Assembly: GCA_037447655.1 (NCBI GenBank)
Contig: JBBHKE010000956.1
Coordinates: forward strand, 102,079-166,078
Origin: Zygnema cylindricum
Taxonomy: Eukaryota > Streptophyta > Zygnematophyceae > Zygnematales > Zygnemataceae
Length of the DNA stretch: 64,000 nt
Direction of reading: 5' to 3'
Positions within the stretch are counted from its first letter, which is position 1. Every line of letters starts with the position of its first letter. Below the pieces are notes generated by a model. The model worked only from the letters and a program-made list of their open reading frames with translations, did no database searches and was not told the origin of the DNA. Made by a program: the position numbers and the translations under genes. Of the stretch, positions 9,801-49,491 are shown in pieces.

Positions 9801-9801
9801 T

Positions 9802-10630: not shown

Positions 10631-10639
10631 AAGTAGGCG

Positions 10640-20871: not shown

Positions 20872-20883
20872 TTTGTGGACTTA

Positions 20884-27756: not shown

Positions 27757-30269
27757 CCCCCCCTCAAGCGAAAACTAGGAAGTAGATTGAGATGAAAAGA
27801 AAGGAAATTTAGCCAGGAGGAGAAGGAAGACGAAGGTCGGAGGAGAGGTGATGCTGCTCAAAGTGAGGGCGATGAAGAGCCTTGGTGAGATAATCGGCCA
27901 CTTGGTCAGCGGATTTGACATAAAGAAACTGGAGAGTGCCATCTTCGACCCGCTCCCGAGAGTAATGATACTGAATGTCGATGTGCTTCGTTCGCTTGTG
28001 GTGAACATGATTGCGGATCAAAGCAAGGGCTCCTTAGGAATCGAAAAAAATAGGAGTAGGGACTGAAGGGGGAAATTCAAGATTGGAAAGCAGAGTCCGA
28101 AGCCAGAAAGCTTTCTTGGCGGCAGGACAAGCGGCCATATATTCCGCCTCAGTGATGGAGCATGCCGTGGTAGGTTGCTTTCTGCATGACCAAGAGATAA
28201 GACCATTGCCCAAAAAGAAGCACGAGCCAGTGGTGGAACGGCGGGAAAGCTCATCTTGTGCCCAATCTGAATCAGCAAAACGCGTAAGAGCACTAGAGCC
28301 AGAGGAAAAATATGCAAGACAAAGAGTTTTAGTGCCCTGTAGATAACGAAATACACGTTTGGCTACGACAAGATGATCAAGAGAAGGACGTTGGAGGAAT
28401 TGACTGAGTTTAGTGACAGCTGTGGCAATGTCAGGACAGGTGGCCTGCATGGCGTACATAAGGGCTCCGACCATCGAGCGGTAAGTGGAATGGAGGGAGG
28501 GGGAGACAAGGGATTCAGTGGAAGGGAGGAGAGGGGCGTTGGCATCCAAAAGAGTGGAAAGGGAGGAGGACTCTCCCATGCCAAACCGTTCCAAAAGATC
28601 AAAGATAAAGGTCTTCTGATAGACGGAGAGGGTGCAAGTTGAGCGATACTAGAAACTTGAATGCCCAAATAATACTGAGCTCACCTAGATCGGCCATGTC
28701 AAAATGGGTTTGAAGGAGAGATTTGACAGTAGAGATTTCAGAGAGGGAACGACCAGCAAGAAGTAGATCATTGACAAAGATGGCAACAATGATGAAACAG
28801 GTGTCGGAGCCGCGAGAGTAAATGCTAAAATAAACATCAATTCGGGTAAATCCTTCTTTCCGCATAATAACATCTATATTATGGTTCTATACACGAGGGG
28901 ATTGTTTTAATCCATAGATTGTTTTAATGAGATGGCAAACCAGATGTTCAGATCCAGGGGAAATATAGCCCTCAGACTGATGCATGTAAATATCCTCGGA
29001 CAAGATCCCATTTAAGAAGGCGTTGTTAACATCCATCTGATGAACATGGAAATCATCTTCAACAGCTAAAGCAAGTAAAGTGTGGATAGATGTTAACCGT
29101 GCAACTGGGGCAAAGGTTTCAGTGAAATCTATACCTTCGATTTGGGAAATGTCCTTCCCCACAAAGCGAGCTTTGTATTTGTCCACTGATCCATCGGCTT
29201 TCTATTTTACACGCAAGACCCATTTTGAGCAGATTGCCTTTCTTCTAGGGGGAAGGGGAACAGAATTCCATAATTTGTTGGAAATTAAGGCATGGAATTT
29301 AGCATCAGCGACAATTTTCAAAAGGGAGGGATTAAGACGTTTTAGGGCAGCTTTGAGAGAGAGAGGGGATGAAATAAGAGAGGTAAGACCCAGCCAAGTA
29401 AGCGTAAGCAAAAGAGGCATGACCTATAGAGGTAATAAGCCGAGAGGGGGGTACTCTAGAATATGCGGGGTTACGGCGAGGTAAAAGAGAGGGCTTAGGA
29501 AGAGGGGAAGTCTTAAGCTTTGGAGGTGAAGTCTCAAGAGGAGTTAAAGGGCCCAAGAAGAGGTGAGTGGGAAAAAATTGTGGGGGAAAGATAGCCAAAA
29601 AGATGATCATCTTGGAAAAGAGGGAGAGAGGAGGTAGTATCTTTGGAATTTGTGGCAGGATGAAGAAGAAGGGCAGGTTATTGGCTGGCAGAAGTGACGG
29701 GAGCAACCGGGAAAACAAAGGGGGTAAGAGAAGATGGAGGAGGGGGACTTGAAGATGATGAGGGAAAAAATATATGAGGATTAGGAGGAGAGGGATGGGA
29801 AGATGTAAGATAGGTGAGGTCAAATGGCTGAAGAGATTGAAAGGGAAGGTTTGGGGGAAGAGGGTCATAAATGGTGAGGGAGGGAAAGTCGGATAATATG
29901 GGAAGAGGGGAAGGGAAGGGCTTATGAGACAAGGGCTAGAGAAGGGGCGTTTCGTTGAAAGTTACTTCTCAGGTGGTGATGACTCGATTTTGAGAAGGGC
30001 TCCAAATGCGGTACGCTTTGGAATTTGGAGTGTATCCAACAAAAATGCCACAAAATGCGCGGGCACCCAATTTGCCGTCTGATTGGATGAGGTATTATAC
30101 CACGCTTCACATCCAAAGATACAAAGGTGGCGTGAATCTTGTTTGACAGATGACCACGCTTCCATTGGAGTAGATTTTGTTAAAGCGTTAGTGGGAAAAG
30201 ATTGCGTAATAATTTGCGTAAACGACATCCTCTGCCCAAAATTCATCATGCAAATTGGAAAAGTACAGT
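27757..30269 (-). pseudogene. Ty1/copia pol remnant (copia A): integrase C-terminus, RT, RNase H
   Basis: Minus-strand pieces appear in copia order. The integrase end (TPMEAWSSVKQDSRHL...FGCEAW, about 30.1 kb) is followed by a Ser/Pro-rich linker at 29.3-29.9 kb. RT follows: DFTETFAPVARLTSIHTLLA and HQMDVNNAFLNG at 28.9-29.2 kb, then the catalytic region at 28.6-28.87 kb. RNase H follows: YRSMVGALMYAM, LTRFADSDWA, SITEAEYMAA. A closing KHIDIQYH and KSADQVADYLTKALH lies at 27.8-28.0 kb. The RT YVDD box reads FVND, losing one catalytic Asp, and frames shift repeatedly, so it is dead. Protease and the integrase core are missing. The right edge is cut by the copia B LTR at 30270. Confidence 0.85.
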
Positions 30270-30479
30270 TGTTGAAATTCAATAGATGCATAGAGTATTT
30301 TCTAGGTCAAAATATATCAGTATAAAAAGGAAAGGAAAAGGTCTGACAGCCTGCCTCCACCGCCTCTCTAGCCACGCTACTTGTTGTAGTCACTGAAGGA
30401 TACAGAGAGTGGTCAAATCATGGTTGCCTTCGTTCAACAGGCACTTGTTTTTAGTAGGTTATTAAAATGATACTTCACA
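30270..30479 (+). mobile_element. Copia B 5' LTR (210 bp)
   Basis: Begins TGTTGAAATTC and ends ACTTCACA, giving TG...CA ends with short inverted termini. A TATAAAAAGG box is at about 30320. It has the same length and sequence family as the solo LTR at 9802 and the truncated 3' LTR at 35645. It is inserted in copia A pol, whose integrase sequence stops at its left border. Confidence 0.75.
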
Positions 30480-31288
30480 GACCCAGGATTTGATCTTGGC
30501 ACTTGTCGTACGTCAAGTTGGCCGATAGCAGTCAACTTCATCCTATTAGTCTAGGACCAATGTTAAATGCTATAGGGTTTGGTAGATATATATCTATTTA
30601 GGAGTGAACAAATTCATTTAACTAAAACTATATACAACATGCATATATACAGTTTTGTAAAGTACGAAGTACGGTATAGTTTTGAAATGGATACCGCGCA
30701 TTTTGTTTTGACAACGAACCAAATATCGCGTAAGTATTTATGACAGCTGGGATTTCATTTTGGAAGTTATCCAATGGCGCACATAATCGTCGAGATCCTG
30801 GAGTGGTCACTTTGGCTTTTTGTGACATGGCATGACCTGGCGCCACATGGAGAGATGACATTTGGTCGAGGGAATTACGGGGAACCTACGGACGAGTAAA
30901 AAGAGGGCACGCGTCCACGTAATAGCCTTGTCGTACATTGGTCGTACAAAAGGTACACCGACACTAGTACTTTTAGGTACGGTATAGTAATATGATTGGT
31001 CCGTACCTTAGTAGACAGGAGTTTTTAGAGAGATTCAGGACTTAGTGTTTTTGGGAATACAGTCTCCTCCCCCTTTGAGGGTTTGTATAAAATAGGCATC
31101 TTTGCCACCCCATAACTTATCGACTGGTTGGCTGTTTTTAGTGATTTTTTTTGCTACGCACTCAAAGGAGTCCTAGCTGCAAAAGGGTGCAATCAAACTA
31201 TCAGTTTGCCTTCTTGGGAAGTAGTGGTTGTGGCTTGAAGCGGGTTAATTGAAACCTATCTAGAGGCTTCTTGAATTTTGTAGTCCAA
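30480..31288 (+). other. Copia B leader region
   Basis: Non-coding sequence between the 5' LTR and gag. No classical primer-binding site (TGG directly after the LTR) is seen. On the minus strand at about 30480-30560 there is a tRNA-like B-box (GATCAAATCC) with a possible A-box (TAGTCTAATAGG), but no convincing cloverleaf. A second TATAAAAT box lies at 31086. The leader is longer than usual, so it may include another decayed insertion. Confidence 0.4.
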
Positions 31289-32343
31289 TGGAGGACATAT
31301 AATTGCAGGTTATGGGCCCACCCCGTAAGGTGCCCACCTTCAATGGATCTAGGTTCATCTATTGGGAAGCCATAATGATGGGGGCTTTGTGAAAAATCGA
31401 TGATGGGGTATCGTTAGTGTACAAGTGAAATGTCCACGTTCGGGAACTCCACCAGGATTTGGAGGAGTTAGGTTTTCTGCAGTAGCGACTGCTTCAGCGG
31501 AGGAGGCAGATGACGGGGACATTAGTGAGTCTCAAAAGAGGAAAGGGAAGGAGACACCCATCACTCTTACTTCCACAACACCAAGAGAGGCGACCGTGAA
31601 GACCGTGGAGAACGATATTCAAATGTGGGAAGACCTAAACATGGCTGCCAAAAACTTCATTCTAAAGCACTTCACTCAAGCTTTGGCCACCCCTCACCTT
31701 CACATTTACAAGGCGGAGGAGTTGTGGGTGAGTTTGGTGGAGATCTATAAAGCTGGTATTATTCAAGAGCTCCAGTTGGCTGAGCAAAAGCTAGTGAGTT
31801 ACACTTACAAAGGAGGAAACACGTTAGATAATTGTAATGATCTTTCTTGTTTGTATATAGAGATGGAAAGTTTCGGGTGGACAGGTACAATGAAGATGAA
31901 AGTTAAAACTCTCATCGTGAAGTTACCAGATGAGTATTATAACATAGTGTACCGCGTACAAGAAATGATTGATAGTTCATAGAAGTGGAATACACTGGTC
32001 CACATGATACTTGTGCAGGAAAACACAATAGAGATTATGAGAGGAGGGAACAACATTCAAGCTCTAGCTGCAAGAAAGGACCGATGGGGGAAGGATCTGA
32101 AGAAACCGTACAAAGGGGAAAGAGATCAGTCTAGAGGACCGAGTCCCCAAAAGGGCCTTTGTCATTTTTGCAAAAAGCCGGGACACTTTATCGCGGATTG
32201 TGTCAAGCTGTCGGAGCTGAGGCTCCAAGAAAACCATGGGTGGGGTTTTTTCGGATGGAAGAAAAAGGCACTTGTGGTCACAAAAATTGCAGGAGAAACC
32301 AAGGACGAGTCCTCTGAGGAGGATGGGGAGCTTCTTTCTTGAC
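31289..32343 (+). pseudogene. Copia B gag, with CCHC zinc knuckle
   Basis: The start region near 31289 encodes PTFNGSRFIYWEAIM, the N-terminal gag pattern of Ty1/copia elements (PxFxGxNYxxW). Stops and a shift follow. A 185-codon frame from 31425 carries the UBN2-like gag core (EDLNMAAKNFILKHF, HIYKAEELWVSLVEIYKA). The frame from 32004 carries the nucleocapsid knuckle CHFCKKPGHFIADC (C-x2-C-x4-H-x4-C) at about 32160. Gag packages the RNA and forms virus-like particles. It is broken by at least two in-frame stops and one frameshift. Confidence 0.8.
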
Positions 32344-33560
32344 AAGAGTCTGGTGGAGAAGGAGATCCCTCAGAGACAAAATTGTGCCCTTAGGGCAATT
32401 CAGGATGCTCCACACGAAGGATGGATCATCGACTCAGGTGCATCCATGCATATGTGTCGTGATAAGCAATTTTTCACTAAGCTAAGAAAGATCCCTACTA
32501 TAGAGATAGAGTACGGGGATGGGAGAGTGGTTACTACATATCTAGTGAGATCAGTAGATCTGAAAGTCATAGTGGAGGGTAAGACTTCTATACTGACATT
32601 CTCAGATGTACTCTACATTCCTCAGTTGAGTAAAAATCTTGTCTCTACATCTGTGTTAGATGACAAAGAGTATGATACCTTCACTAGAAAGGGAGTCTTC
32701 ACAGCTAAGTATGGGGATGAAGTCTTTTTAACGGCAGATAAGGGTAGCCAAGGCATGTTTATGCTTAACCAGAGTAATGAAAAGAAGAATGCTTATTATG
32801 TTGGTGTTCCAAAATTGATGATCTGGCATAAGCGGTTGGGGCATGTGCATTTTGAAAGGTTGAGGGAAATGAAGAAGCTTGATGCAGGGGAAGGCATTTG
32901 GTTGGTGATAATGAAATGGTGGATGATTGTAGTGGATGTGCTCAAGGAAAAGCTACAGACTTCCTTTTCCCAAGGCCACCCTATATAGGGGGAAAAGGTA
33001 CTAGATCTAGTTCACATAGATATCTGGGACCTGGAAGAGCACCTTCGGTTGGAGGGAAGAGGTTTCTATTAAAAAAAACCGATGACTATTCTAGGTACTC
33101 TAGAGTCTACTTCCTAGAAACCAAGTCTGAACACCAACTTACTTCAAAAAATATAGAGCCTGGAGTGAGAAGTTGCATGGAACCCCCATTAAGAGAACAA
33201 GGAGGGATAATGGGGGAGAATATACCTCTAACCATTTTGAGGAATACCTGAGAGATAAGGGAGTTCAGTACCAGAAAACTATACCATATAACGCGAAACA
33301 AAATGTGGTAGCTAAAAGATTGAACCGAACACTATGAGATATTGTATCTAGTATGTTGGCTGACAAGAAAACAGGAAAAAGATTTTGGGGAGAAGCCATA
33401 AACTATGCAAACTACATTAAGAAGAGAGTCCTTACCTCACTCGTAAATGGAATGACACCTTATGAGAGATGGGTTGGAAGGAAACAAGATATCTCACACC
33501 TTAAAAAATTCGATAGCCAAGTTTACAGTCTTGATACGGATAAGAAAAACTAGAAACTAG
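32344..33560 (+). pseudogene. Copia B protease and integrase, decayed
   Basis: The aspartic protease motif WIIDSGASMHMC lies at about 32422. The GAG-pre-integrase domain follows at about 32815 (MIWHKRLGHVHFERL), with its zinc-binding Cys residues near 32930. Integrase core traces are TDDYSRYSRVYFLE at about 33080, LNRTL next to a TGA stop at 33335-33337, and GMTPYERWVGRK at about 33450. The middle of the integrase is frameshifted and the catalytic D-D-E cannot be read in one frame. A stop follows at about 33551. Confidence 0.8.
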
Positions 33561-35644
33561 ATGCTAAGGGCAAACCTGGATACTTTGTAGGATATGATGA
33601 GGATGTCAAGGGATATAAACACTATGACTTAGCAAAGAAAGATATTATTATGGTCAAACACCTAGTTGTCATGGATGAAGGGAAGTCATTTGACCCCTTC
33701 AAATATACCAAAAAGATAAATATGTGTTTTGAGGCTGAAAGCGAGGAGAGTCTTGTCTTTCCCTAAAAGGACAGGGGTGAAATAGTGATTGCATATTCAG
33801 GGGAGATCCAAGATACAGGAGATCTACCAGACACCTCACATATTCCTATGGACTTTGAGGAGACAAGAGAGAAGGAACTAGAACCGGCTTCCATGAAAAG
33901 GGGAGCTAATGAGACAGTAAAGAGAAACCCGAGACTTCCTTCCATTCTAGCTTCAAAGTTTGAGGGAGGGAGAAAAAGCAACAAAAGGCTACAAGAGAAA
34001 CAGGTTGCTCATAAGGTAACTAAGCTATCTCATCCTGATGAGCCTTAGTCATACTTGGAGGAAGTGAACAGCCCAGAAAAAGACACATGGATTAGAGCCA
34101 TAAATGATGAGATGGCTTCTTTCAGGGAGGCAACTACTTGGGAACTAGCGGATTGTCCTCAAGACAGAAAAACCTATTAGCTGTAAATGGGTATTTTAAC
34201 TAAAACTAAACCCAGATAATACCATTGAAAGATATAAAGCTCGTTTGGTAGCAAATGGGTTCACCCAAAATTAGGGGATTGACTATGCGGAGACGTTTGC
34301 TACAGTTGTTCAGTTCCCATCAGTACGGATTATCCTCAGTCTAGCAGTAAATGAAGACGTGGAAATTCATCAGATGGATATTAAGATAGCATTTCTCAAT
34401 GGTGAGTTAGAGGAAGAAATCATCATGCGACAACTAAAGGGATTTGTGGAAAATGGGGAAGAGAGCAAAGTTTGCAGGCTCATAAAGTCCTTATATGGAC
34501 TGAAGCAGGCTCCCCGACAGTAAAATAAGAAAGTATATGAGTTTCTCACAGGTCTGGGATATATCTAGATCAGCTCTAACCATTCTATCTATATGTTTGA
34601 AGATGAGAATGGTGTCATTTTTATTGCAATTTATGTGGATGATCTGCTTGTGTTGAGTAAATCTTTGAAAAAAATCAATAAGTTAAAGAAGGATCTTAGA
34701 AGCAGATTTGATATGAAGGATTTAGGGGAGGCAAGATACATTTTGGGGATCCAAATGGAGAGCGATAGGGGGAAAATGATTATTAGAATTACTCAAAAAG
34801 AAGCAATAGGTAATATGCTTGAGAAATTACAAATGGAAAAGGCAAACAGTTATACCACTCCCATGGACTTGACGAAAGAAAGTGATGGGAGTGTAGAAGG
34901 AGGAGTGATAATCTTAGATGATCGGATGAGTCCAGAGGAGAGAGAGTTTATGAAGTCTATTCCTTATAGACAGGTCGTAGGAAGTTTGATCTACTTTATA
35001 AACTGTATAAGGCCGGACATAGCCGCAACAGTAGGAGTCTTGAGTCAAAGTCTTAACGATTCTAGGAAGAAAGATTGAAGGCAACCAAGAGAGTCATGAG
35101 ATATCTGGTAGGAACTAGAGAGTTATGGATGCATTTGGGAGGGGAGCACACTGATATCACTACTTGGAGTGATGTCAGTTATGGGGATGCACCTATAAGA
35201 ATATGCACTTTTAGGTATTTGTTGTATGTCGCGGAAAGTGATTGTTGTTGGAGCAGCAAGCAACAAAAGGTGGTTGCTCAGTCTACTATAGAGGCTAAGT
35301 ACATGGCTTATTGTTCTGCTATGAAAGAGTTAATGTGGGTCAAATCCTTGTTGTAAGAATTGGGGTATATGAAGGAGGGAGTGCATGATGTGTTTTGTGA
35401 CAATTAAGCTGGCATTGCAATTGCAGCTAATCCAAAGCATCATTTCAAGGCTAAGCATATGGACATAAGATTGAGTTTTGTGAGGGAAAAAGTTGAGAAT
35501 AAGATTGTGAATCTTGTATATAGATTTGATAAGAAAATGGTGGCAAATATGATGACAAATCAAATGCCTTCTCCCAAATTAAAACATTGCAGAGAAAGTG
35601 TGGATTAAAATTGAAGTTAAAGTTAGACTAGAAAATAAGGGGAG
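33561..35644 (+). pseudogene. Copia B reverse transcriptase and RNase H, decayed
   Basis: RT begins near 34050 (SYLEEVNSPEKDTWIRAIND). It continues through HQMDIKIAFLNGELEEEI, LYGLKQAPRQ and FIAIYVDDLLVLSK; the YVDD box at about 34630 is intact. Then come DMKDLGEARYILGIQM, YRQVVGSLIYFINCIRPDIA and RNase H (TTWSDVSYGD, EAKYMAYC, then AGIAIAANPKHH). Stops at 34046-34048, 34272, 34521, 34568, 35354 and 35404, plus a 1-bp deletion near 35077, break it. Most stops replace expected Gln, Arg or Trp codons. A polypurine tract (AATAAGGGGAG) precedes the 3' LTR. Confidence 0.85.
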
Positions 35645-35764
35645 TGTTGAAATTCGGTAGATTTATAGAGTATTTTCTAGGTCTAAATTTATCAGTATAA
35701 AAACGAAAGAAAAAGGTCTGACAGCCTGCCTCCACCTCCTCTCTAACCACCATACTTGTTGTAG
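35645..35764 (+). mobile_element. Copia B 3' LTR, truncated at 120 of 210 bp
   Basis: TGTTGAAATTCGGTAG through CATACTTGTTGTAG matches the first 120 bp of the family LTR. It then switches abruptly into gypsy gag sequence (GAAGAGACCTGCTCCC). The missing LTR part is not seen at the far end of the gypsy element. Confidence 0.8.
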
Positions 35765-36817
35765 TGAAGAGACCTGCTCCCAACACAACTCGTGTCCGCC
35801 CTGCCGAAGGGCTCTAGAGATCTAGGCCTACCGATCCCGAGGTTCCGGGTACGGGACCAGCTGATTTGTCCGAGGGATGGAGGCGGACCAGACCTAATGA
35901 TCCCGAATTTACGGGCACCGAGATAGCGCATCTTACCAAAGTAGTGGAAAAAGCCAAGGAACTAGTGGAGGTTCTGAAATCCCAAGGACAGGCTACGGCG
36001 GGGGCCGGACCCGTCACGGTAGATTGGGAGGCCTTAGAGGAAGAGAGGCGAAAGGCATGGGAACAAGAATTGACGCTCATTACGGAAGCTTGGCGTAGGA
36101 CAAGTGGGATTATTAGCGGGAAGATTCCTCCTACCTCACAGATAGGGCCGCATTCAGAAGCTCCAGCAGTGGGGACTTCTCCTCCCGCCACTTCTTAGCC
36201 TGAAAGGCCTTCTTCGGAGCCAAGCCAAGAGCTTCCCCTTCCGTAGAAAGGGGAGGAAAACAGAGGACCTAATGTGGAGGGTTTGGGTGCAGATCTACCT
36301 TCTGGAAACACTTCAGCTTATCAGGAAGAGACCTCCTTTGTCACGGTGGAGGTGTCTACTGCTGTGGAGGCTTTAGTGGAGTTACGGCCTGACATGAGGA
36401 TTCACATCCCCTTGAGGGCTCCGACACCCCCTCTCTCTTCTCCCAAAAAATCCCCAGAGCCCCCATCTTCTGCTCCCCCACCTTATTCCTCTCACTCCAC
36501 GGAACACGCCACAGGTCCGGGACTGTCCATATCCCTCTCCTTCGCCATCCGTTTCTCCCGCTGCAGCTGTCCGTGGGTCCCCTGGTCCGTCTGTGTTGCC
36601 CTACGAATAGGACGTACCTGCCTATTCACCTCCTCACCGACGCTCTCCTTCCTCCAGCTCCGGAACTTCCCCTCTAGAGACCTCTAGGAGGCGAACCAAG
36701 AGACAGACATCTTTACCCGCAAGGGCTGCGCTGTCTCCTTCTATATCCCCTTCTCCGTCTCCGCCACCAGCCATTCCTCAAAGGCCTAGTAACAAGTCGC
36801 GCCTCCACATCCCATCG
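35765..36817 (+). pseudogene. Gypsy element G: 5'-truncated gag N-terminal region
   Basis: The frame carries two similar blocks (RPTDPEVPGTGPADLSEGW and RTRPNDPEFTGTEIAHLTK), then a helical Glu/Lys-rich segment (VVEKAKELVEVLKSQGQ). After a TAG at 36196 a Pro/Ser-rich region follows (APTPPLSSPKKSPEPPSS). No LTR or primer-binding site precedes it, so the 5' LTR and leader are lost. GC content and CpG frequency look clearly higher than in the surrounding AT-rich DNA. Confidence 0.6.
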
Positions 36818-37912
36818 GTGGCAACCGTCCTCGAGGATCCACAATATTCTGCTGGATATAGAGGAGTAGTGGGGGACATCCTACCTCCAACCATCTTCTC
36901 CGACACTGGTACTTCCTCATTGGGAGGGGGATCCACACCACAGGGGGCCGCACCTTCTAGCAGGGAAGGACACGATTCCGATCCCGAGGAAGAGGATACG
37001 AGAGTCATCTCACCCGCTCAGTTTGTCAGTCCCACCGCGCCTTCCTCTTCCCATTTCACCAACTCTGTAGAGGAGGAAAAAGAAATGGGGGATATTCGGA
37101 TCTTTACCGGAGATAGCTCGGGGATTGCATTCTCAGATTTTGAGTTGTTGTGGAAATCTTTCACCATGAGATAAACAAGTACTACCGGGGGGGAGCCATT
37201 CCGGATGACTTTGAAACCACCCTCTTCCCCATGATGGTGAACTACCTGTGTGGAGGGGCGTTGGCACATTACAAGGAGCGTCAACCTCTTTTGATTGCTC
37301 CTAGCATTAAAATCTTCGATCCAGCCCTTGATGCCGCTTTTTTGCAAGCGGGGGCTGACTTGGCCACGGCTCCGGCAACCCCTGTGACTGCTACCTTTAC
37401 ATAGCATGAAACTACAGGCGCAAGGAAGTGCCTATGTTAACCAGCTGCAGGCGATCCAGGAAGCCCAAGCAGCAACTCGCATGGTGGCCAACCCAAACCC
37501 TTGTACCACCCTGCTGAATATCTGGAGACTCCTCTACACAGAGAGGAACGAGTCCGCGATCAAGGAATTCAAGGAATTCCGATGTTTGAAGAACGAGACT
37601 CCCCAGACTTTGTTTAACCGACTCTCTAGTCTTTGTCAAAAGACAAAGCTGTCCACGATTGATCTTCTGGCCATGGCCACAAAATATTTCATCGCCGTCT
37701 GTAAGTCCTTCGGGCCGACAGGGCAGACTACACTAGACATTTCGATTGCCGGACACGCAATTCAGGACATTAATCCCTCCGCCAAGGACATTTCTCTGGT
37801 GGCCATGAAGTTGTATGACCACTTCGTCCATAGTGAGGCAAGGGAGAAGGCCGTGACTGGCAAGGCCCGAGCAAATTTGGCAGGATTCGCCGGGGAGACC
37901 TCTTTGAATTAA
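36818..37912 (+). pseudogene. Gypsy element G: gag capsid region
   Basis: A frame from 36818 gives an acidic segment ending MGDIRIFTGDSSGIAFSDF. A shifted frame from 37150 gives FHHEINKYYRGGAIPDDF and Y-L-C-G-G-A-L-A-H-Y. The frame from 37406 gives SAIKEFKEFRCLKNETPQ and TLFNRLSSLCQKTKL. The pattern fits the Ty3/gypsy retrotransposon gag capsid (surface x helices before the x-F-x-x-L-x-Q-x segment). At least two frameshifts separate the pieces. Confidence 0.65.
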
Positions 37913-38867
37913 GAGGAACAGGCTGAACTCCAAGCTCTTCAAAAGCTTAAAGGGAAGCAAGTAGTAGCTGACAGCGGGTCAGAGCAAGCTATGGGAGTAG
38001 ATGAGCGGGTATTTCTCTATAATTGCCTGAATTATCAGCAAACCAGGTCATGGGTGGAAGCATTGCACCAGAAAACTTAAACCAGAGCTGGCTTTGAAAC
38101 TTAAAGAATGGGAGAAAAAACGCGCAGAAAGAACCTTGAAACAGCAAGAAAGGCTCAAGGGGGGGAGGGGAGAGGACAAGACACCGGTAACCAAAGAAAC
38201 TTACCGTCCAACTCCACGGAGCGAAACCTCTAAGATGTCCCAATCTCAGTTGCGGCAGATCAAACTTCCCAAGTTTGATGACGCCCAAATCTCCAACGAA
38301 ATCCGGAGTAAATATACTACCGAGGGCGCCAAGTGCGAAGCTTGTGGATTTCTGGGGCATAAGGAAGGGCAATGTTTCTGGAAAAATGGAATACCCAAGG
38401 AAATGATGCAGTTTTCTTTGTTTACTGAGGAAGAGGAAACCGCCGTTAACCCTCTACCCCTCCAACTCCTTTACCCGTGGGGGCGCCAACTTATGCCAAC
38501 ACCGGAAAGACCTGAGGGAGTTCCGGCTCCTCCGGCAAAGTTTACGTCGGAGATCATTATACAGCAACAAAGTCAGCAGTTGGCCGCGATGGCTGCAAAG
38601 TTAGCTGCCCTCCGCTTGGGATCTTCCTCCCCGCCTACACCTCGTACAGCAGCCCAACGACTCCAAAGGCAAAGACAGGAGTTGTTACAGAAGCTCGCAG
38701 AGCTTGAGCTTCAAAGCACAGAGGGTGCCAATGATGACGACTTATTGGGCTGGGATTTGGAACCTCCAAATGCCCACCATGCCCGAAGCTTCCCGTCCGG
38801 AGCTTGGAATGTTGGGGTAGGAGACAGTCGTCGCCAACTCCGCAACTCCACCACAATGCAAAGATAG
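37913..38867 (+). pseudogene. Gypsy element G: nucleocapsid with CCHC zinc knuckle
   Basis: The 257-codon frame from 38094 is charged and Gln-rich. At about 38333 it carries KCEACGFLGHKEGQCFW, a C-x2-C-x4-H-x4-C nucleic-acid-binding knuckle. A coiled-coil-like stretch follows (QRQRQELLQKLAELELQ). It ends at a TAG (38865-38867) which probably replaced CAG, because the same frame continues straight into the protease ORF 12 bp later. Confidence 0.8.
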
Positions 38868-38879
38868 GACCGGCAGAAA

Positions 38880-40016
38880 ATGGGTCAGAGGGATCACAAC
38901 CAGAAAGCTACGGGGCCTTTGTCATTTACTTCCCGAGCCGTGATGCTGAACAACGACAACGGCTTAGGAATCAAACCCACTCACCAGCCATCTCTTCCTC
39001 CCAAACCTAAATTGCCTCCCGGTTTCGAAAATTACAAGAAGGAGAAACAGCAGCGAGAAAAGGAGGTACTAGAACAAGAGAAAAAAGACAATCAGAACTG
39101 GTTTGAGAAATATATGGCCGAATGCCCAGAGAATGATGCTCCCCAAACACCTCGTGTTCCAGATTCTGGCTCACAGAGTGAGCAACAAGGACAAGATCAA
39201 GATCAGCAGGAGGCAAACTCATCTCCATCTTCACCAAAAGCAACACTTCCCTCCTCCAAGCCGGCTGTCATGCTAGTTCGACACCTCATGCCCTATGCTC
39301 TCACACACGTGAAGACTCTAGCCTCGTCCCACAACCTTCCCAAAAAAATCCTCATTCAGGCATTGGGAGAGGAGATCCATTCTGGAAAGGGAGGGGTAGA
39401 CAAGACCACTCCGCCAACCACATTATTTTTGTCCACCGATCCTAAAACCCCTATAGTGGATAGGGAATACAAAGCCTTATCCGTGGCTCTCATACTGAAC
39501 AGAACCGGGAACTTCAAGCTCAACGGATACAGGGGATACCAGGACGCTGTGGTCGACACCGGAGCTCTCCCCAACCTCATTACCACCTCCGCTTTGCAGA
39601 AGATGCCCGAGGAACTCCGGCCCGAAATCTGCCCAAGCAACATTTGCATAAGCACCGTAAGAAGCGGCAGTCAACCAGTCCATGGGATAATCAAGGCCAT
39701 GGATATCAAGTTTTCGGATGACGGAGGCCAACGGGTTAAAATTGAGCTCCCCTTCTTGGTGGTGGAAGGGACTCAATTCGAAATTCTGTTGGGAATGGCC
39801 ACCTGGACCCAGCTCAATATGAGTTTGAGCGTGTGGAAAGAACAGTGTACCGTTCGGGACCCCAAAAATCCGGAAGGAACCAAAGTGGTGGTTCCTCTGG
39901 ATTTATGGAACCGGGGAAAGACAAATGTCCCAGTGTCTAGATGCTACCCAATGTACACAACATCATCTCCGACGGAACTGTTTGGCAGTTCCACAGATAT
40001 CGCCAAAGAAATCTAG
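38880..40016 (+). pseudogene. Gypsy element G: linker and aspartic protease
   Basis: A 378-codon frame in the same phase as the nucleocapsid. The first 200 residues are a charged Gln/Pro-rich linker. The retropepsin follows, with VVDTGALPNLITTSAL (catalytic D-T-G at about 39552) and the flap-to-C-terminal motif FEILLGMATWTQLNMSL (I-L-L-G). The protease would process the polyprotein. It ends at TAG (40014-40016) followed by CAATTC. The same frame then runs into the methyltransferase, so PR and DNMT were one polyprotein before this stop. Confidence 0.85.
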
Positions 40017-41156
40017 CAATTCCGAATTTCCAGGCGGTGGGAAGAGGAATATCAGAATAGATTATTACAGGTAGCAAAACTCCGGTGGGGAGTGGATCAG
40101 GCATTTTCAGCCTTGACGTTGAAGGAAGCTACCTCACCTTCTAATGCTTCCAAACCCAAGAGCAGTAATAACGAATTCAATCGACAAGTGGTGTCATTGG
40201 CAAATCTCGATTCCGGACTGCATATTTTATCTCTATTTTCAGGAATTTGTTCTAAATTGGAAGCGGTCTTCACACCATGATATCTGGTGGAGTCATACAC
40301 AGCCGTGGAAGTATCTCCCGAGGCTAGGGCGGTCAGCGAACATCGCCTCGACCACCTTCATCACCTATATCCTCAACAGCTTCTAGTATTAGCCTTCTCC
40401 AAAGCTCACCGTAGTCTTCCCCACAATGTAGAAAACATCACGGTGACCCACATGGCCAGTTTGGTAAGAGTGGATTTGGTGTTGGCAGGCTGGCCTTGTC
40501 AGGGATACTCCCTAGCAGGACAAGGAAAAGGGCACCAAGACCGCAGAAGTGGAACCTTTTTTCGGTTGATAGAGTTAATCTCGTGGCTTCAACAACTTCA
40601 GGAAACGCCGGTGGGGTACATTCTGGAAAATGTCCACCCGGGAGATGATAAACGAAAACAGGTTGCGGACAGCTGGAATCACGTAACCCAAATTTTAGGG
40701 GCTCCATTAGTTTTCGACACCGCACAGCTGGGATCCCTGGCACACCGTGTCAAGGCATATTGGACCAACATGATCCCGATTCCAGTCCTCCGACAACTGT
40801 TAAAGAAGGAAATCCCCGACCCGAAAAATTCCATCCAGCAAATACTTGGGGAAGGTAGAATAGCCACACAAGTGACTCGACCCTACCGCCCACCTTTTTT
40901 TCGGTGCAACAGACCGGGATTCCCAAAGAAAGCCCTCCCGACATTGGTCGCTTTCCCTCACAGTCACGCATATCGGTATGGAGCGGTGGGAATGATTTTT
41001 GACAGCAAAGTTGGACTCTGGACAACACCGACAATTGCCGAACAAGAAGAAGCAATGGGATTTCAGAAAGGAACAACGGTAGCACAAGGTATGTCAGACC
41101 TTCAGCGGTGCAGACTCAAGCATGCACTCGCCTTTTCCAGTTTCACGTCCACGTAA
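40017..41156 (+). pseudogene. Gypsy element G: DNMT3-like C5-cytosine DNA methyltransferase domain
   Basis: In phase with the protease, the frame gives motif I (LHILSLFSGI, about 40210, AdoMet binding). A single TGA follows at 40278-40280, then TAVEVSPEAR (motif II), VLAGWPCQGYSLAGQGKG (motif IV with the catalytic Pro-Cys, about 40493) and YILENVHPGD (motif VI, Glu-Asn-Val, about 40618). Next are SLAHRVKAYWTN (motif VIII) and EEAMGFQKGTTVAQGMSDLQ (motifs IX-X). Motifs run I to X in canonical order, unlike rearranged DRM enzymes. The A-H-R-x-x-x-Y/F-W-x-N form of motif VIII recalls DNMT3. About 320 residues with all catalytic residues present; only the TGA (CGA in the likely parent) breaks it. 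It would methylate C5 of cytosine in DNA. Its place between PR and RT is not standard for Ty3/gypsy. Confidence 0.9.
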
Positions 41157-41440
41157 TCGAGAGCTATTTACCATCAAGCTCCTCAGTTATTAGCACTGCA
41201 GGCAACTTTGCAGCTTGAGGGGGGGAGAGAAAGGAGAAGAAAAACCAAACTTTACATTTTACCGCCGCAGGTTTTCCTAGTGGGGGGGGACAGCAGCTCC
41301 GATGGTGATAGCTTAGCGGAAGTTGTCAGCACCAGTGTACTAGCCAGAGAGATATGGGCAGATCCACCGGTAGGGTTGGAATTCGACATTAACCTCCGGG
41401 AAGACCGCCGGAAGCTAAGGCTGCCGTTGAGCCGGGGAAA
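41157..41440 (+). pseudogene. Gypsy element G: connector between methyltransferase and RT
   Basis: After the TAA at 41154-41156 the same frame continues open (SRAIYHQAPQLLALQATLQL). From 41208 it gives a basic then acidic stretch (REIWADPPVGLEFDINLRED). Between about 41390 and 41440 the coding phase shifts to that of RT. Whether this shift is a programmed frameshift or damage cannot be told from one copy. Confidence 0.6.
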
Positions 41441-42859
41441 ATGGATTGGACCTTGGGGGAAAAGCTGGACCCTCAGCAGAACGCGCAACTCTCAGAGCTG
41501 TTGGCCGAACACAAACAGGTGTTCTCATGGTCAGAAACAAACGTCGGTATCTACAAAGGAACACCCTTCCGAATTGATTTGATCGACGAGACGGCTAATG
41601 TTTGGCAGAAGCAGTATCCTCTCAGTTTCAAAGAAAAGGAATTCATCACGGCTAAATTCCAGACCTTGGTGGAAGCCGGATTGGTTCAAGAAAGTACCAG
41701 ACTTCATGGATTCATTTCCCCGACAGTCCTCCCTCCCAAAAATGACTCGTCTGGGAAAACTGTAGATTTTCGGATGTGTGGAGACTATCGCATGTTGAAC
41801 ACGGCCACCATCTCTGACCGGTATCCGATGCCGACTCCGGAAGAGATATTCGACTCTCTTGCAGGCGCCACTATATATTCCACTCTAGACCTGAAGAATG
41901 GTTTCCACGAGATTGCAATGGAACCAAAGCACTGGGAGAGAACTGTATTTTGGGTGAGTTCCAGACTTTATGAATGGATTTACATGCCCTTCGGGCTTAA
42001 AAATGCACCGGCAAAATTCCAACGGGCCATGGACGAAGCACTCCGAGGAATCGAGTGTGCCCGGTGCTATATTGATGATGTTATTATATTCTCAAAGACT
42101 TTTGATGAACACCTGGAGCATATCCAGATCGTTCTCCGGGCACTCCGAGCAGCGGGCTTGAAATGTCACCCGGGCAAAGGCATTTTTGGGGTGCACAAAA
42201 TCATTTACCTCGGACATGAGGTGACACCCGGGACTGTGGGTCCCCACATGGTCAAGGTGGCAGCCCTTGACGCTCTTCCCCCACTACAAGACATCTCCGC
42301 CGTTCGCACTTTTCTAGGTTTGGCCAATTACTATCGGCGGTTTATCCCAGAGTTCAGTAGTCACGCCCAGCCCCTTAACCAGCTACTGCAGAAGGACCAA
42401 GAGTGGCAATGGGCCAAAAAACAACAGATTTTCTTCCAGTTCTTGAAGGATGCTCTGAAGCAGCACCCCGTGCTCCGGATGCCTGATCACCAAAGACCTT
42501 TCCTCCTTTATACTGATTGGAACAGGTTTGGATTGGGAGCGGTTCTGGCTCAAGTCGATGATGCCGGAGCTGAATATGTGGTGGCCTACGCCAGCCGGAG
42601 TAACAACAAGGTTGAGGGGAATTATAGCAGTTACCACGGAGAGTTACTCGCAGCGGTTTGAGCCATCCAGCATTTTCGGCCTTATTTGTACGGAGTCCAT
42701 TTCACACTGATTACGGATAACCAACCCTTGAAATGGATCATGGAAAATAGTAAGTTGACCGGCAAACTCGCCAGATGGGTTCTTATCCTGCAGGAATATG
42801 ATTTCGACATTGTTCATAGGGCAGGGGAGATCCATGGGAATGCCGACCGACTTAGCTAG
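41441..42859 (+). pseudogene. Gypsy element G: reverse transcriptase and RNase H
   Basis: RT opens with LDPQQNAQLSELLAEHKQVF. It continues with FRMCGDYRMLNTATISDRYP, STLDLKNGFHEIAM (first catalytic Asp), YMPFGLKNAPAKFQRAMD and CYIDDVIIFSK (YIDD box at about 42067). FLGLANYYRRFIPEFS is the Ty3/gypsy thumb signature. RNase H follows: LLYTDWNRFGLGAVLAQ, YSSYHGELLAAV, then a TGA (42659-42661) where TGG is expected (V-W-A-I). It continues HFRPYLYGVHFTLITDNQPL and HGNADRLS to a TAG at 42857. Catalytic residues are intact, so this part is only lightly damaged. Confidence 0.9.
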
Positions 42860-43840
42860 AATCCAGATCCCTCCACCATGGATTCTACCAGGGCTCGGCA
42901 TGATGAGGACCGTGAGATCAGCTTGGGAATCATTCGAGCCTCCTCTGTTTTCATCTAGCTTCCCCAATCTGGGAGGGAACTGTCAACTTTCTCTGCCGAT
43001 GTGGAGGGGCAGGCGCCAATAGGGGCCGGACGGAAGGAAATCTGGAACGACCCGATGCTCTCCAATCTATCTAGCGAGGTCCCCTCTTCCCCACTTGACT
43101 GGAGTTCCTTTGTCCCGGGTACAGACCGGATGGCTGCTTATGATTGGGACAGAGGCGTTCTCCTTCGGAAATGGTCAGACGGTACGAGGAAAGTGGTTCC
43201 TCCCCCCTCTGACCGAGAAACTCTGATTTCTAATCTCCATCGGCAATGTGGACACTTCGGGCAAAAGCGGACCACTTCCCTGGTTACGGGTTCTTATTGG
43301 TGGCATGGGTTGCTGACCCAAGTCAACCGAATTGTGCAAACTTGCTCCTCATGCGATCGCGTTAAGACAGCTTTTGACAAAAAGGGCGGGACTGAGCTTC
43401 ACTCACTGCCTATCCGAGGGATGTTTTATCGGTGGTCGTTGGATTTTTTGGGACCCCTTCCGACCAGCAGGCGGGGGAACCGCTTTGTGCTGGTTATGAT
43501 AGAACATTTTTCCAATTGGATCGAGTTGGTGGTTTTGCCCCGGAAGGAGTCCAAGGCAATTGCCGATGCCTTTTTGCAACGCGTGCTGGCCCAATTCGGA
43601 GCGCCGGCGAAAGTTCTGACCGACTAAGGCTTCGAATTTGCCGGAGAATTTTCCAACCTCTTGGAAAAATGCTTGGTCGACCATCGGCTAACCAGCCGTG
43701 ACCACCCTCAAGCCGATGGTTTAGCCGAAAGGTGTGTACAGACATTGAAGCGGTCACTACGAATATATGCCGTGGAAGAAGATTTGGGGGAGTGGGACAG
43801 AAAAATTGCCTTGGATTGCTATGGGTTACAGATTTAGCAG
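42860..43840 (+). pseudogene. Gypsy element G: integrase
   Basis: The frame from 43001 carries the zinc-binding H-H-C-C domain (NLHRQCGHFGQKRT with C-S-S-C at about 43351). The core begins YRWSLDFLGPLPTSRRGN (first Asp) and continues to FGAPAKVLTD (second Asp), where TAA at 43625-43627 replaces the usual Gln. The phase continues to DHPQADGLAERCVQTLKRSL, giving the catalytic Glu. The D-D-E set is therefore present, interrupted by one stop. Further stops and shifts follow after about 43835. Confidence 0.85.
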
Positions 43841-44525
43841 GCAGGCTTCTCTCCACTCCTATAGCCCTTATTTCATTCTATTTGAACGACATACCATCTT
43901 GCCCGGAGCTGCATCGGCCCAAGCGGTGGTCCTACCGGAGATGGATGACAAGGGGACAGTCGAAAAACTGATCGACGACAGGGCCAAGGTATTCCACCGA
44001 GAGATGCCTCTCGCCATGGGCAATTTGTAGGCGGCTCAACACCAAGATCAATTGTGGTATTCTCAGCGCCAGGGTGGGAATTGTGTGCCCCGGCAGCGAC
44101 GATTTATGCGGGAGACCTTGTATATCGAATGCAATAGAAGAAGGACACGTTGGACATTTCTGCCGGGAGGGTAATATTGAAAGTGGTCGAGGTGTCTAAC
44201 AAAGGGGTTTTTACATTGGAGGGGAAAGATGGTCGACAAATTAAAGAGAATCAGATCAATGTGGCCCCTTGCCATCTTCGGGGATTGGAAGACGAACCAA
44301 CTTTCCACTTAACGCACAGTGTCGATCCTCCCTTCGTTCCACAGCTTGCAGCCAGTCTTCCCAGCTGCACCACCTATTGGTCTGCAATCAGTGTGGTCAG
44401 TGTTGGCATTCAGCCTGTCTCCCCCCCTCTTGGGAGCCACACCATATACCCTCTAGCATGTGGTTCTGTGGGAACTGCGAATGGAGTGGGTAATTGTTTT
44501 CATATCTTAGTCACGGTTGACTAAG
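43841..44525 (+). pseudogene. Gypsy element G: integrase C-terminal region with PHD-finger-like tail
   Basis: After damaged sequence, the frame from about 44100 gives AGRVILKVVEVSNKGVFTLE, the small beta-rich integrase C-terminal fold that follows the core in gypsy elements. A phase change then leads at about 44370-44490 to VCNQCGQCWHSACLPPSWEP and WFCGNC. The spacing C-x2-C-x4-H-x2-C and the closing W-x-C-x2-C match the second half of a PHD finger. The first Cys pair is imperfect: only one Cys (STAC) is in place, with Ser where its partner should be. PHD fingers bind histone H3 tails, so it may replace the targeting chromodomain of chromoviruses (inference). Confidence 0.6.
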
Positions 44526-44536
44526 AGGGGGGGAAA

Positions 44537-46011
44537 TTGGGGATATCAGCCCGATTGTCGAGACCCTAATCCCTTCCCCCGTTCAGGGGGGAGAGGAAGG
44601 AGGAGGGGATAACTTTCACTTGCCCCCTTGCCCTCCTCCCTATTCCTTGCTCATGCCTCTCTCCTATTTTGCATGCATATCCATGGGAGGGATGTGGGCA
44701 GCAGTGAGCATGATCATCCTTTTTGGGAATCATTCGCATTCGGGATTTATTTGCAAGACCCCAATGCTGAAGACTCCGGGCTGTGGGCCCCTCCCTCACG
44801 TTAATCAGGCACGCTCGACAGCTGGGAAGCTCATGTGCTTTTCAGGCATACCTTTATATCATCAAGGATTTCCGGGTATTTTTTATGCTGTACGGTCTTC
44901 AGAGTACGGAGGAGTGAGTGCAACAAGCCGGACGAGATCCTTGTATTTTCTTAAATGAGCGGAACGCACTTTATTTCGCGTCTAACGGAGGCCGAATGAC
45001 CAAGTTCTACCGTTTCAAAGATTGCAATTCCGTTACCTGAGACCAGTTTCCAACAGCCTCTGTGGGGGGGTACATTCTGGATTGCCACGTAACTTTCCGG
45101 ATTTGTATCTAGATTATGCTGTTAGCCGTCAGTAGGAATTAAGCTCCGGCTCAGCTGACTTTTGGTCCTTTAATTACGTTAAGTCAAAGTCTGACAAGTT
45201 AGTGTCATTTTCAGGATTTTGTCTTAAAATAGGGGACTAAATAATTAATTCCGGCCGCGGATCTAGCCGCAGTCCAGAGCAGAAATTTTTGACCCAAGTG
45301 TAGTACGGATTAATTTGTCTTGTGTCAGTTCCATTACACTTGCTTGCGGCTCATTGGTTAATAGCGTAGCTTTGACTTTCAGACTTGCAAAATGACAAAC
45401 TTTGATGTATAAGGCACTTGGGGTCGAAGGAGTTAGGTTGCTTTTCAGTACTGTCTCCTGTGAAAACCCTCAGAAATTCCAAAAAACCTTCTTTTGGAGA
45501 ATCTTTGTGTTGTTTCGACTCTATTGCCATCTTGGTTTTGGATCTGTCTTTTGTGGAAATCACACTCCGGGCGGGTGGTTGGCAGTATCTTCCTTTTTGG
45601 GTGATTTTACACTTTTTGCTGTTTGGAACCGAGAAGAGTCTGGTGGGTTCCGAGCTGCGGACACCGAAGGTTGCTCGAGTACCATACCTTTTGACGATAC
45701 TCTCGGTAGAGGGCTCGCCTTTTTCTCATTTTCATCGTTGATTGCTGGGGTATGTTGAGCTCGTTTCGCTACATTTCACATATTATATCTTTTATTCTTT
45801 TTTCTGGGGCAAGGTGATATTGTTAAATCTGGAAAGCCAATCATATTTATCTATATATATATATATATATCTACGTGGTAGTGCATTTGTGTCTTCATCA
45901 AAAGTTCTCTTTGCTTTGGAGTTACTTTTCTGGAGTAAGCTGAAAACCCCCTAGATAAGGACAGTGGGTTTTGAGGGAACAAATGCGTTAGACTTCCCGT
46001 CGACAAAGCAA
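44537..46011 (+). mobile_element. Gypsy element G: 3' LTR (about 1475 bp)
   Basis: It follows a polypurine tract (AAGAGGGGGGGAAA) and begins TTGGGGATATCAGCCCGATTG. The first 285 bp recur at 46012, which defines the unit. It contains pyrimidine/purine-rich borders, a (TA)n run at 45850 and no gene. The plus frames inside have no motif. Terminal bases look like TTGGGG...AGCA(A); exact ends cannot be fixed from one full copy. Confidence 0.65.
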
Positions 46012-46296
46012 TTGGGGATATCAGCCCGATTGCCGAGACCCTAATCCCTTCCCCCGGCCAGGGGGGGGAGGAAGGAGGAGGGGATAACTTTCGCCTGCCC
46101 CCTTGCCCTCCTCCCTATTCCCTGCTCATGCCTCTCTCCTATTTTGCATGCATATCCATGGGAGGGATGTGGGCAACAGTGGGCATGATCATCCTTTTTG
46201 GGAATCATTCGCATTCGTGGTTTATTTGCAAGACCCTAATGTCAAAGACTCCGGGCTGTGGGCCCCTCCCTCACGTTAATCAGGCACGCTCGACAG
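46012..46296 (+). mobile_element. Gypsy element G: second, truncated LTR copy in tandem
   Basis: Repeats 44537-44821 almost base for base (GGGGATATCAGCCCGATTG through CAGGCACGCTCGACAG), then stops and copia A gag begins. The two LTRs touch without internal sequence between them. Confidence 0.8.
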
Positions 46297-47243
46297 AAGA
46301 TCGTGGGAGGGATGGAGAAGGGGAATAATGGTGAGGATAAGGAAAATTTGGAGGGAAAGAAGGGTGTGGAGGGAGTGGGGGGGTGGGAAGAATTGGTGGG
46401 GTGGTAGAGGCAGCGTTGACATTCCCTCCATTTTAAGGGGGATTGGAAGCCTCGGCTGCTTTTTGCCTTGCCAATTTTCGACAGTCTTCAACGAAATGTC
46501 TTTTTGTTTTGCAGTAAGCGCAAAACAAATGCTGCACCCCCCCGAGTTAGTTTTCTCATTTTCAGCAATAAAGGCATTGGCATGAGAGAGATCTGGAGCA
46601 GAAAAAGAGAGAAGTTTTGTCTCTTCATGCAAATTTTTTGTACAAATGGAGTGAAAGGGAATGGATTAGTCTTGATTGTCAAACTAGGAAATGAAAGGGG
46701 AAAAGGTTTAAAGGAGTCCTCCTAAAAGGGTAGAAGAGAGGTCCTCGTCGGAAAGATGCACGCTTATCATGGTGCACTTTCTGGCCAACAATTCGATTGT
46801 GCTAATCCAATCTTGCATAGATTCCGTCCGCTTTTTCATGGAGTTAAAAAACGCTCGTTTATGAATTCGGCGAGCGGCCCATCCGGTTTGAATGTAAGTC
46901 GCTTGAAAACGACTCCAAGCCTCGGCGGAAAAGGAGGCGCCGCGAATAAGACGAGTGCGCTCGGTGGTAAGTGACATCACTAAGCGAGCGCGCATATCCT
47001 CATCCTTTTGTTTCTATTTAGTTATTGCCAACTCTTTTGTAGCTTTTTCTACTAGTGTATCAGTAGAGGAAAGGATAAAAGGTTTTGAAATTCCAATGAA
47101 ATGGTCCTAAATCTTCTCGTGTTTGAAAAAATGCATGGCTAAATATGACCAATCATAGAATTTTTGGCCATCAAACTTCTGGATAGTATGAGAAGTGGCT
47201 TGGCTTGGCCCATATCCTATTGGAGGTGGATTGGCAGAAGCCA
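46297..47243 (-). pseudogene. Copia A gag (minus strand), decayed
   Basis: The minus strand starts near 47243 with MASANPPPIGYG, followed by SHTIQKFDGQKFYDWSYLAM. The main frame (46708-46995) gives ERTRLIRGASFSAEAWSRFQ and DWISTIELLARKC, a typical Ty1/copia UBN2 gag core. A Cys-containing tail near 46530 (GGCSICFA, then a shifted K-T-K-R-H-F) looks like a broken CCHC knuckle. It is the 5' half of the element whose pol half lies at 27.8-30.3 kb. The protease and integrase core between them are missing. Confidence 0.8.
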
Positions 47244-47276
47244 TGAAATTGTACATAAGAGAAAATCAAAGCATTG

Positions 47277-47811
47277 GAGAGAGAAATTGATTTGTATTTT
47301 GGGATGATTTCATTGAGTGAGAAAATTCACTTATATTCAAAATACACAGTGCTAATTACCGTGGAGTCTAAACGCTCTTTGGTGCGCTGTAACTAAAAGG
47401 ATCCTAGTCAAGATTCTAATACATATATTCAAGATTTTACGTGACTAGATTCTAATGTATGTAGACTAGATTCTAACGTAAGTTAGATTGTAACGGATTG
47501 AATTTAGGTCGGAAATGTACAAAAGTAATTAAGATATAAAGTAACAACGTAGACTCACGCGACAAAGAGTACAAGGACAAAATTAAAGTACAAAAGAGAA
47601 TTAAGACAAACAAAAAACATATATAGAAAAAGAGAGACCGTCGCCCAAAGAACTTGTACGTAGGGCGAGAAGACTAGACCGACGCATGTAGAGTACGACA
47701 AGACCAAGACCGGACTGACGCATTTAATGATGGGTACAGACAAGACCAAGACCAGAACGATGTATGTAATGACGAGTACGGACAGAAACTAACGCTAAAT
47801 GACCCTTAACA
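47277..47811 (-). mobile_element. Copia A 5' LTR (minus strand)
   Basis: Reads TGTTAAGGGTCATTTAGCG inward from 47811 and aligns with the LTR at 27.2-27.76 kb over its whole length with scattered differences. The left end is approximate. Confidence 0.75.
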
Positions 47812-48259
47812 CATCATCACGTTAGGCGCTAATCGACAACATACAAGAAACTTGCGCTCCTCTGTTGGAGGATATGCAAATAGTCGTACGCTGAACTGTA
47901 CGGTTGTGATGCCACGTGGAGACACCTCGTAAGTGACACTTCGTCGGTTATATTACACAATGCATACATCGAGGTCATGTGGAAAGAGGGAGTTCGTGTA
48001 CACCTTAGACGCTGAGAGGCTATTCGAAAGAAGCTTTGCCATTTTCTTCTTGTGATGTGACAACTCAAGTAAGTTGAGAGTACGACCGTTACACGTACGA
48101 CATTCCTACACGTACTTCTTACACGTGCTTATGGTGGCGCGAAACATGTTTGTTGCTTCTCGGCTCTCGAACGTTTGGGACGAAACGTGCTCGTAGGTCT
48201 GGTAACTTTTTGCGGAAACGGAAGGCTCTCCATTCCAGTGGCGAAGTATTGTACTATAC
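47812..48259. other. Intergenic, no gene seen
   Basis: No recognised feature. The minus frame 47829-48068 lacks motifs. Confidence 0.4.
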
Positions 48260-49257: not shown

Positions 49258-49491
49258 TCATTCCTTCCGATAGAAACCATCTATGTGCACAACAAAAAAT
49301 GTTATAGCTTTTGGTGAAATTGTAGATGTTTAGGATGATGTGACATTGTGATGTCATGCTCACTTGTGACAGCGTCATTCCTTCCGATAGAAACCATCTA
49401 TGTGCACAACAAAAAATGTTATAGCTTTTGGTGAAATTGTAGATGTTTAGGATAATGTGACATTGTGATGTCATGCTCACTTGTGACAACG
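49258..49491. repeat. 117-bp tandem duplication (two nearly identical units)
   Basis: Units 49258-49374 and 49375-49491 both run from TCATTCCTTCCGATAGAAAC to CATGCTCACTTGTGAC and differ at only a few positions. The duplication is recent relative to the divergence of the surrounding element arms. Confidence 0.9.

Follow-up and report, generated by a model that had tools for sequence, protein, structure and literature searches.

A Ty3/gypsy retrotransposon fossil from Zygnema cylindricum with a C5-cytosine methyltransferase domain in its polyprotein and a PHD finger downstream of the integrase

Why a transposon should carry an enzyme of the very pathway by which it is silenced is an open question, and this question is raised by a stretch of 64,000 nucleotides of Zygnema cylindricum DNA (the window). 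A previous reading based on the letters alone (the sequence-only reading) had proposed that a Ty3/gypsy retrotransposon in this window harbors a C5-cytosine methyltransferase domain between its protease and its reverse transcriptase (RT). Our analysis confirms that the polyprotein of a Ty3/gypsy retrotransposon contains such a domain, located at 40017-41153, and it has identified a PHD finger downstream of the integrase. Our best explanation, to which we assign a probability of roughly two in three, is that the locus is the now dead copy of a Ty3/gypsy element in which a working DNMT3-like methyltransferase marked the cDNA and the PHD finger tethered the integrase.

Anatomy and reading frames of the element

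The following parts of the gypsy element can be recognised:

35766-37912, plus strand: gag-like region, truncated at its 5' end; the name gag rests on its position
38031-38864, plus strand: zinc-knuckle (nucleocapsid-like) region with CX2CX4HX4C (CEACGFLGHKEGQC), read from the translation
38868-40013, plus strand: retropepsin-like aspartic protease (AVVDTGA), DTG motif read directly, in the frame of the methyltransferase
40017-41153, plus strand: DNMT3-like C5-cytosine methyltransferase domain, in-frame TGA at 40278, open piece 40281-41153
41157-41392, plus strand: linker, still in the frame of the methyltransferase, ahead of the switch to that of RT (frame 0 open over 41157-41579, frame 2 opening at 41393)
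41393-42658, plus strand: reverse transcriptase with the first part of RNase H, Ty3 type (YIDD; PF00078 E 9.2e-27, PF17919 E 1.6e-22)
42959-43834, plus strand: integrase with H2C2 zinc domain and core; the frame is open up to 43624 and, after a stop, goes on to 43834
44138-44330, plus strand: probable C-terminal part of the integrase, end approximate, placed by its position, in the integrase-core frame after several stops
44245-44490, plus strand: PHD finger (PF00628 above cutoff), in a frame other than that of the integrase
44523-44536, plus strand: polypurine tract AAGAGGGGGGGAAA, read from the sequence
44535-44821, plus strand: terminal repeat B, first copy (287 bases)
44822-46009, plus strand: segment A between the two B copies (1188 bases, GC 0.42)
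46010-46296, plus strand: terminal repeat B, second copy, 95% identical to the first; end of the recognisable element

Thus, the domains follow each other in the order zinc knuckle, protease, methyltransferase, RT, RNase H, integrase, PHD finger and polypurine tract. The assignment to the Ty3/gypsy retrotransposons holds: RT and RNase H are of the Ty3 type, with 4ol8 (E 1.8e-61) and the Ty3-G polyprotein 7q5b (E 1.9e-60) as the best solved relatives, and protease, RT, RNase H and integrase are present in this order. The protease matches PF13650 with 18.3 bits (E 0.0038), below the Pfam cutoff of 24.3, but has the DTG motif, and the zinc knuckle was read by eye, with a Pfam E value of 0.21 that is below the cutoff. 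For the integrase, there is a match to PF17921 (E 4.3e-15), whereas PF00665 (E 5.5e-7) reaches 30.2 bits with a cutoff of 32.6, and rve_3 (E 0.013) is below its cutoff as well; the probable C-terminal part at 44138-44330 has no Pfam match. The open pieces of the gag-like region (35818-36198, 36247-36687, 36611-37174 and 37388-37912) match no Pfam family above its cutoff.

The gypsy element is part of a nest: A copia element on the minus strand encloses both a copia element on the plus strand (about 30270-35765) and the gypsy element. The gag-like coding region of the latter starts at once where the LTR of the plus-strand copia (35645-35765) breaks off, with the LTR matches ending at 35765. The minus-strand copia has LTRs at 27163-27757 and 47214-47812 that are 93% identical, gag at 46708-47010 (PF14223), and at 28034-28645 an RNase H-like sequence that was seen by eye only and has no Pfam match. 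In the plus-strand copia, gag is found at 31404-31979, the Pol beta-barrel and pre-integrase domains at 32221-32985, and RT at 34569-35075. A relative of its LTR is present at 9801-9992.

The sequence-only reading had put the methyltransferase in one phase with the nucleocapsid and the protease, upstream of RT, RNase H and integrase, and this is borne out. The frame that covers zinc knuckle, protease and methyltransferase (38031-41579) contains only 4 stops in 1183 codons (at 38865, 40014, 40278 and 41154); first-order Markov sequences, of which 1000 were generated, contained 43.4 stops on average and never fewer than 24. Over the same interval, 50 and 38 stops are found in the remaining two forward frames. 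With 4 stops instead of the about 43 expected, we can conclude that the three domains lie in one decayed coding frame, which extends into the linker beyond the methyltransferase. RT and RNase H (41393-42658) are encoded in the second frame, which is shared by the integrase (42959-43624). The length of the reading frame is less telling: in 300 Markov sequences as long as the element, the longest open reading frame had a median of 174 and a maximum of 289 amino acids, so that the 291 amino acids of the methyltransferase open piece are by themselves only just beyond chance (the longest real open reading frame has 422). The methyltransferase claim is therefore carried by the PF00145 match discussed below and by the stop count rather than by length.

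The base composition points in the same direction. The GC content is 0.505 in the methyltransferase open piece and 0.504 in RT, as compared to 0.37 in the flanks (1-9 kb and 48-57 kb). However, this argument is not clean since the GC content of the 261 bases before the TGA, 0.429, is below that of the remaining Pol, and values of 0.41-0.45 are reached in host coding-like stretches. Taken together, frame and composition argue for, although in a single copy they do not prove, a methyltransferase that belongs to the element as opposed to one that was inserted late. The alternative is a chance capture, i.e. a host DNMT3-like gene or retrocopy that was inserted in, or transduced by, one gypsy copy and that has never been a working part of a family. 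Such an event would be in agreement with the single copy seen (the methyltransferase, PHD and RT pieces give only self-matches within the 64-kb window), with the stop that the methyltransferase has of its own, and with the lower GC content of the first 261 bases of the region. Yet, zinc knuckle and protease share their frame with the methyltransferase over 3.5 kb, linker included, the open piece of the latter has the composition of RT and not that of the flanks, and a gypsy element with Dnmt3 in the Pol ORF is described in the main text of PMC5890265. We regard chance capture as improbable.

The copy is a fossil, with a truncated 5' end, with stops, and with a shift of frame ahead of RT and another ahead of the PHD finger. 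In the frame of RT and integrase, the stops include those at 42659, 42857, 42956 and 43625. Thus, while location and shared phase of the methyltransferase are as the sequence-only reading had stated, this copy has a TGA inside the domain and a truncated 5' end.

The methyltransferase domain

The open piece of the methyltransferase (40281-41153, 291 amino acids) matches PF00145 with 38 bits (cutoff 22, E 1.7e-9); TIGR00675 gives 43.9 bits, below the model cutoff of 100.65. In the numbering usual for C5-methyltransferases, the motifs can be read directly and in order: I (LSLFSGIC), II (AVEVSPEA), IV (AGWPCQGYS), VI (ILENV) and VIII (AHRVKAYW). All five align with DNMT3A, DNMT1 and DNMT2, and the Pro-Cys of motif IV and the Glu-Asn-Val of motif VI are present. 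Motif VIII reads R-V-K rather than the R-x-R of the three references, and motif X (RCRLKHALAF) is weak, with K-H-A and without the G of the references. A better motif X was not seen by eye in the other two frames near 41040-41279. Moreover, the TGA at 40278, which had escaped the sequence-only reading, splits the domain between motifs I and II. The off-consensus motifs VIII and X could be due to decay or to divergence, and given their state the enzyme of this lineage may have lost its activity before the stop arose.

Which family does the domain belong to? A comparison with the Protein Data Bank gives matches to 27 distinct sequences at E values up to 0.01, namely 17 of DNMT3A or DNMT3C and 10 of M.HhaI, and the best match is DNMT3A (E 2e-4). 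This alignment spans residues 49-196 of the 291 and pairs AHRVKAYWTN with AHRARYFWGN and GRIAT with GRIAK. DRM2 chains and chains that we take to be of the plant CMT type are present in the structure library, yet they are absent from the 27 matches. Local alignments evaluated against 500 shuffles gave z-scores of 16.3 for DNMT3A, 9.0 for DNMT2 and 4.4 for DNMT1, in a comparison that used one reference for each of these three families. The earlier designation as DNMT3-like thus stands among the families compared, and judging from the alignments it seems to be the best label. In animal DNMT3 proteins, PWWP and ADD domains adjoin the catalytic domain; neither was matched in the scanned pieces of the gypsy element. 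Retrotransposon DNMT3 proteins need not have a PWWP or an ADD domain.

Phage records matching the methyltransferase provide no support for a phage origin: among the 20 listed of 104 records, the identity is 26.7-35.5%, and none of the 104 covers 80% of the query. When viral contigs were scanned with the methyltransferase, RT and the integrase, 8, 4 and 24 pattern-matching stretches, respectively, were found and none was confirmed; a scan of prokaryotic genome contigs with the methyltransferase gave 43 such stretches, again with none confirmed. Since these collections are viral and prokaryotic, the scans say little about eukaryotes. The AlphaFold2 model of the domain from the single sequence had a mean pLDDT of 32.4, too low to be used.

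The PHD finger after the integrase

The sequence-only reading had considered the methyltransferase as the added domain of the element. This it is; however, it is not the only added chromatin domain. In the third frame, between the integrase and the polypurine tract and thus beyond the region on which that reading had commented, a PHD finger is encoded (44245-44490). It matches PF00628 with 30.9 bits (cutoff 24, E 2.9e-7) over residues 34-78, corresponding to 44344-44478. Seven of the eight zinc ligands are present (C35, C47, C50, H55, C58, C75 and C78 of the piece), with the first cysteine replaced by serine; they were assigned according to C4HC3, the ligand pattern of PHD fingers. Among the 60 listed of the 75 Protein Data Bank matches at E values up to 5, the best are PHD fingers of MLL3 and PHF21A. 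The E value of 1.4e-6 for MLL3 (2ysm) combines two stretches with E values of their own of 2.8 and 0.0023, and the best match in a single stretch, again among the 60 of 75 listed, is PHF21A (E 9.5e-5). The weak matches (E 0.4 and above) include proteins that have no PHD finger, such as nitrile hydratase. Pfam is the stronger evidence for the PHD finger. The single-sequence AlphaFold2 model has a mean pLDDT of 50.1, which is too low to be used.

PHF21A is a reader of unmethylated H3K4. No aromatic cage was seen by eye in the PHD finger of the element. If this finger binds histones at all, our guess from the absence of the cage and the likeness to PHF21A would be unmethylated H3K4.

Published relatives and a possible mode of action

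As assumed in the sequence-only reading, there are precedents for retrotransposon-borne methyltransferases in a charophyte and in dinoflagellates, as described in the main text of PMC5890265. In Klebsormidium nitens, KnitGypsy-Dnmt3 carries a DNMT3 under purifying selection in the gypsy Pol ORF, and Symbiodinium has DNMT-bearing DIRS and LINE elements, with the DNMT3 of SymbioDIRS sharing an ORF with RT (PMC5890265). A gypsy-borne DNMT3 is thus already published and its kind is known; the available part of the review PMC9861306 adds nothing further on gypsy-borne DNMTs. Judging from the published description, the Zygnema element resembles KnitGypsy-Dnmt3 in the presence of a DNMT3-like domain in the Pol polyprotein, here with a change of frame before RT. 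A possible second similarity concerns the terminal repeats. DIRS elements have the repeat order A-coding-B-A-B, and the same structure is reported for KnitGypsy-Dnmt3 (PMC5890265). In Zygnema, repeats are seen only at the 3' end (coding-B-A-B), and the 5' end of the gypsy element, where a 5' A or a first LTR with its primer binding site would lie, is missing. This order would fit what remains of a DIRS-like arrangement once the 5' end has been lost. An identical picture would result from a tandem of a complete LTR and a truncated one. The Klebsormidium and Zygnema elements may differ in the PHD finger, which is not mentioned in the main text of PMC5890265. With SymbioDIRS-Dnmt3 and SymbioLINE-Dnmt of dinoflagellates the Zygnema element shares a retrotransposon-borne C5 methyltransferase, but these belong to other element classes, with a tyrosine recombinase or an endonuclease in the published account (PMC5890265), whereas the Zygnema element has an H2C2/rve integrase.

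The position of the PHD finger has its own parallels. Gypsy lineages of the brown alga Ectocarpus are reported to have C-terminal chromodomains and one lineage, Gypsy-10, a Tudor domain (PMC12477816), and the Chronos elements of oomycetes are reported to carry a chromodomain (PMC5348765). As in the chromoviruses, Chronos and Gypsy-10, a domain of the histone-reader type is located C-terminally in Pol, after the integrase; unlike in those elements, the reader in Zygnema is a PHD finger, and Pfam finds neither a chromodomain nor a Tudor domain in the 3' pieces 43628-43834, 44138-44521 and 44245-44490. The combination of a methyltransferase as writer and a PHD finger as reader on one gypsy element may be new, as far as a thin literature check can tell: the word PHD is absent from the main texts of PMC5890265, PMC12477816 and PMC5348765.

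How might the two domains have worked? In the explanation that we favor, the methyltransferase would be made within the Pol polyprotein and thus be close to the reverse transcriptase, where it would methylate the new cDNA de novo, presumably at CG sites. The latter is suggested by the SymbioDIRS DNMTs, which carry out de novo CG methylation in yeast, while the SymbioLINE enzyme tested was inactive; in the passages of PMC5890265 considered here, activity on yeast DNA is reported for SymbioDIRS and not for the gypsy enzyme of Klebsormidium. The C-terminal PHD finger would tether the integrase to nucleosomes with one particular histone state, as the chromodomain does in other gypsy elements, and new copies would already bear the mark of the host's own silent DNA when they enter the chromatin. 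The benefit for the element could be twofold, less harm by insertion and no treatment as foreign DNA; in this way, the methyltransferase might contribute to hiding from silencing or to tolerating it, as the sequence-only reading had suggested. Against this explanation stand the single copy seen, which is broken in several places, the off-consensus motifs VIII and X, and the PHD finger, which is out of the integrase frame and lacks its first cysteine.

When a methyltransferase is combined with a reader downstream of the integrase, a joint strategy with two separable parts suggests itself, to mark the cDNA and then to choose the chromatin. Animal DNMT3 proteins combine the catalytic domain with a PHD-like ADD reader. 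It is tempting to speculate that there is a gypsy family with a writer before RT and a PHD reader after the integrase that methylates its own cDNA, steers it to the matching histone state, and has thus rebuilt the DNMT3-ADD module on a transposon. We put this forward tentatively, at somewhat less than even odds, and joint action of the two domains in marking and placing copies would go beyond the precedents cited. If the family is intact elsewhere in the host, a mobile element would have acquired, independently, the combination known from animal DNMT3.

Instead of providing the cDNA with a camouflage, the methyltransferase might silence the inserted element itself, a form of self-limitation by which the host is protected. 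Slowed retrotransposition is offered as one possibility in the main text of PMC5890265, and the CpG observed/expected ratio, which is 0.66 for the gypsy element, 0.43 for the plus-strand copia and 1.13-1.15 for two flanks, would fit methylation of transposons. However, two host coding-like stretches have an equally low ratio (0.65-0.68), and neither the gypsy element nor the plus-strand copia shows an elevated TpG (0.99 and 1.06 in the two). For these reasons we have rejected CpG depletion as evidence for methylation. We hold self-silencing to be improbable, slightly more so than chance capture. About as improbable is an enzyme that targets RNA, i.e. the transcript of the element or the tRNA primer, rather than DNA: DNMT2, which the structure records annotate as a tRNA methyltransferase, is the second of the three families (z 9.0) and RNA methylation has been raised for LINE elements whose DNMT left yeast DNA unmethylated (main text of PMC5890265), but DNMT3A is clearly ahead (z 16.3) and its AHRARYFWGN is the counterpart of AHRVKAYWTN.

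Several other features of the window deserve mention. One copia LTR has a CpG observed/expected ratio in the flank-like range of 1.13-1.16. An RT fragment on the minus strand at 10175-10639 (PF00078, E 5.4e-7) is perhaps derived from a non-LTR element, and the region 14043-14768, which matches its own reverse complement with 67% identity over 772 aligned columns, is perhaps a foldback element. On the minus strand, an open frame of 1291 amino acids at 17005-20880 is very acidic and repetitive with a strong strand skew. At 49258-49491, a unit of 117 bases is present in two tandem copies that are 98% identical. Finally, DOMON and cytochrome b561 domains are encoded by host gene pieces at 61136-63330, which possibly belong to one gene split by introns.
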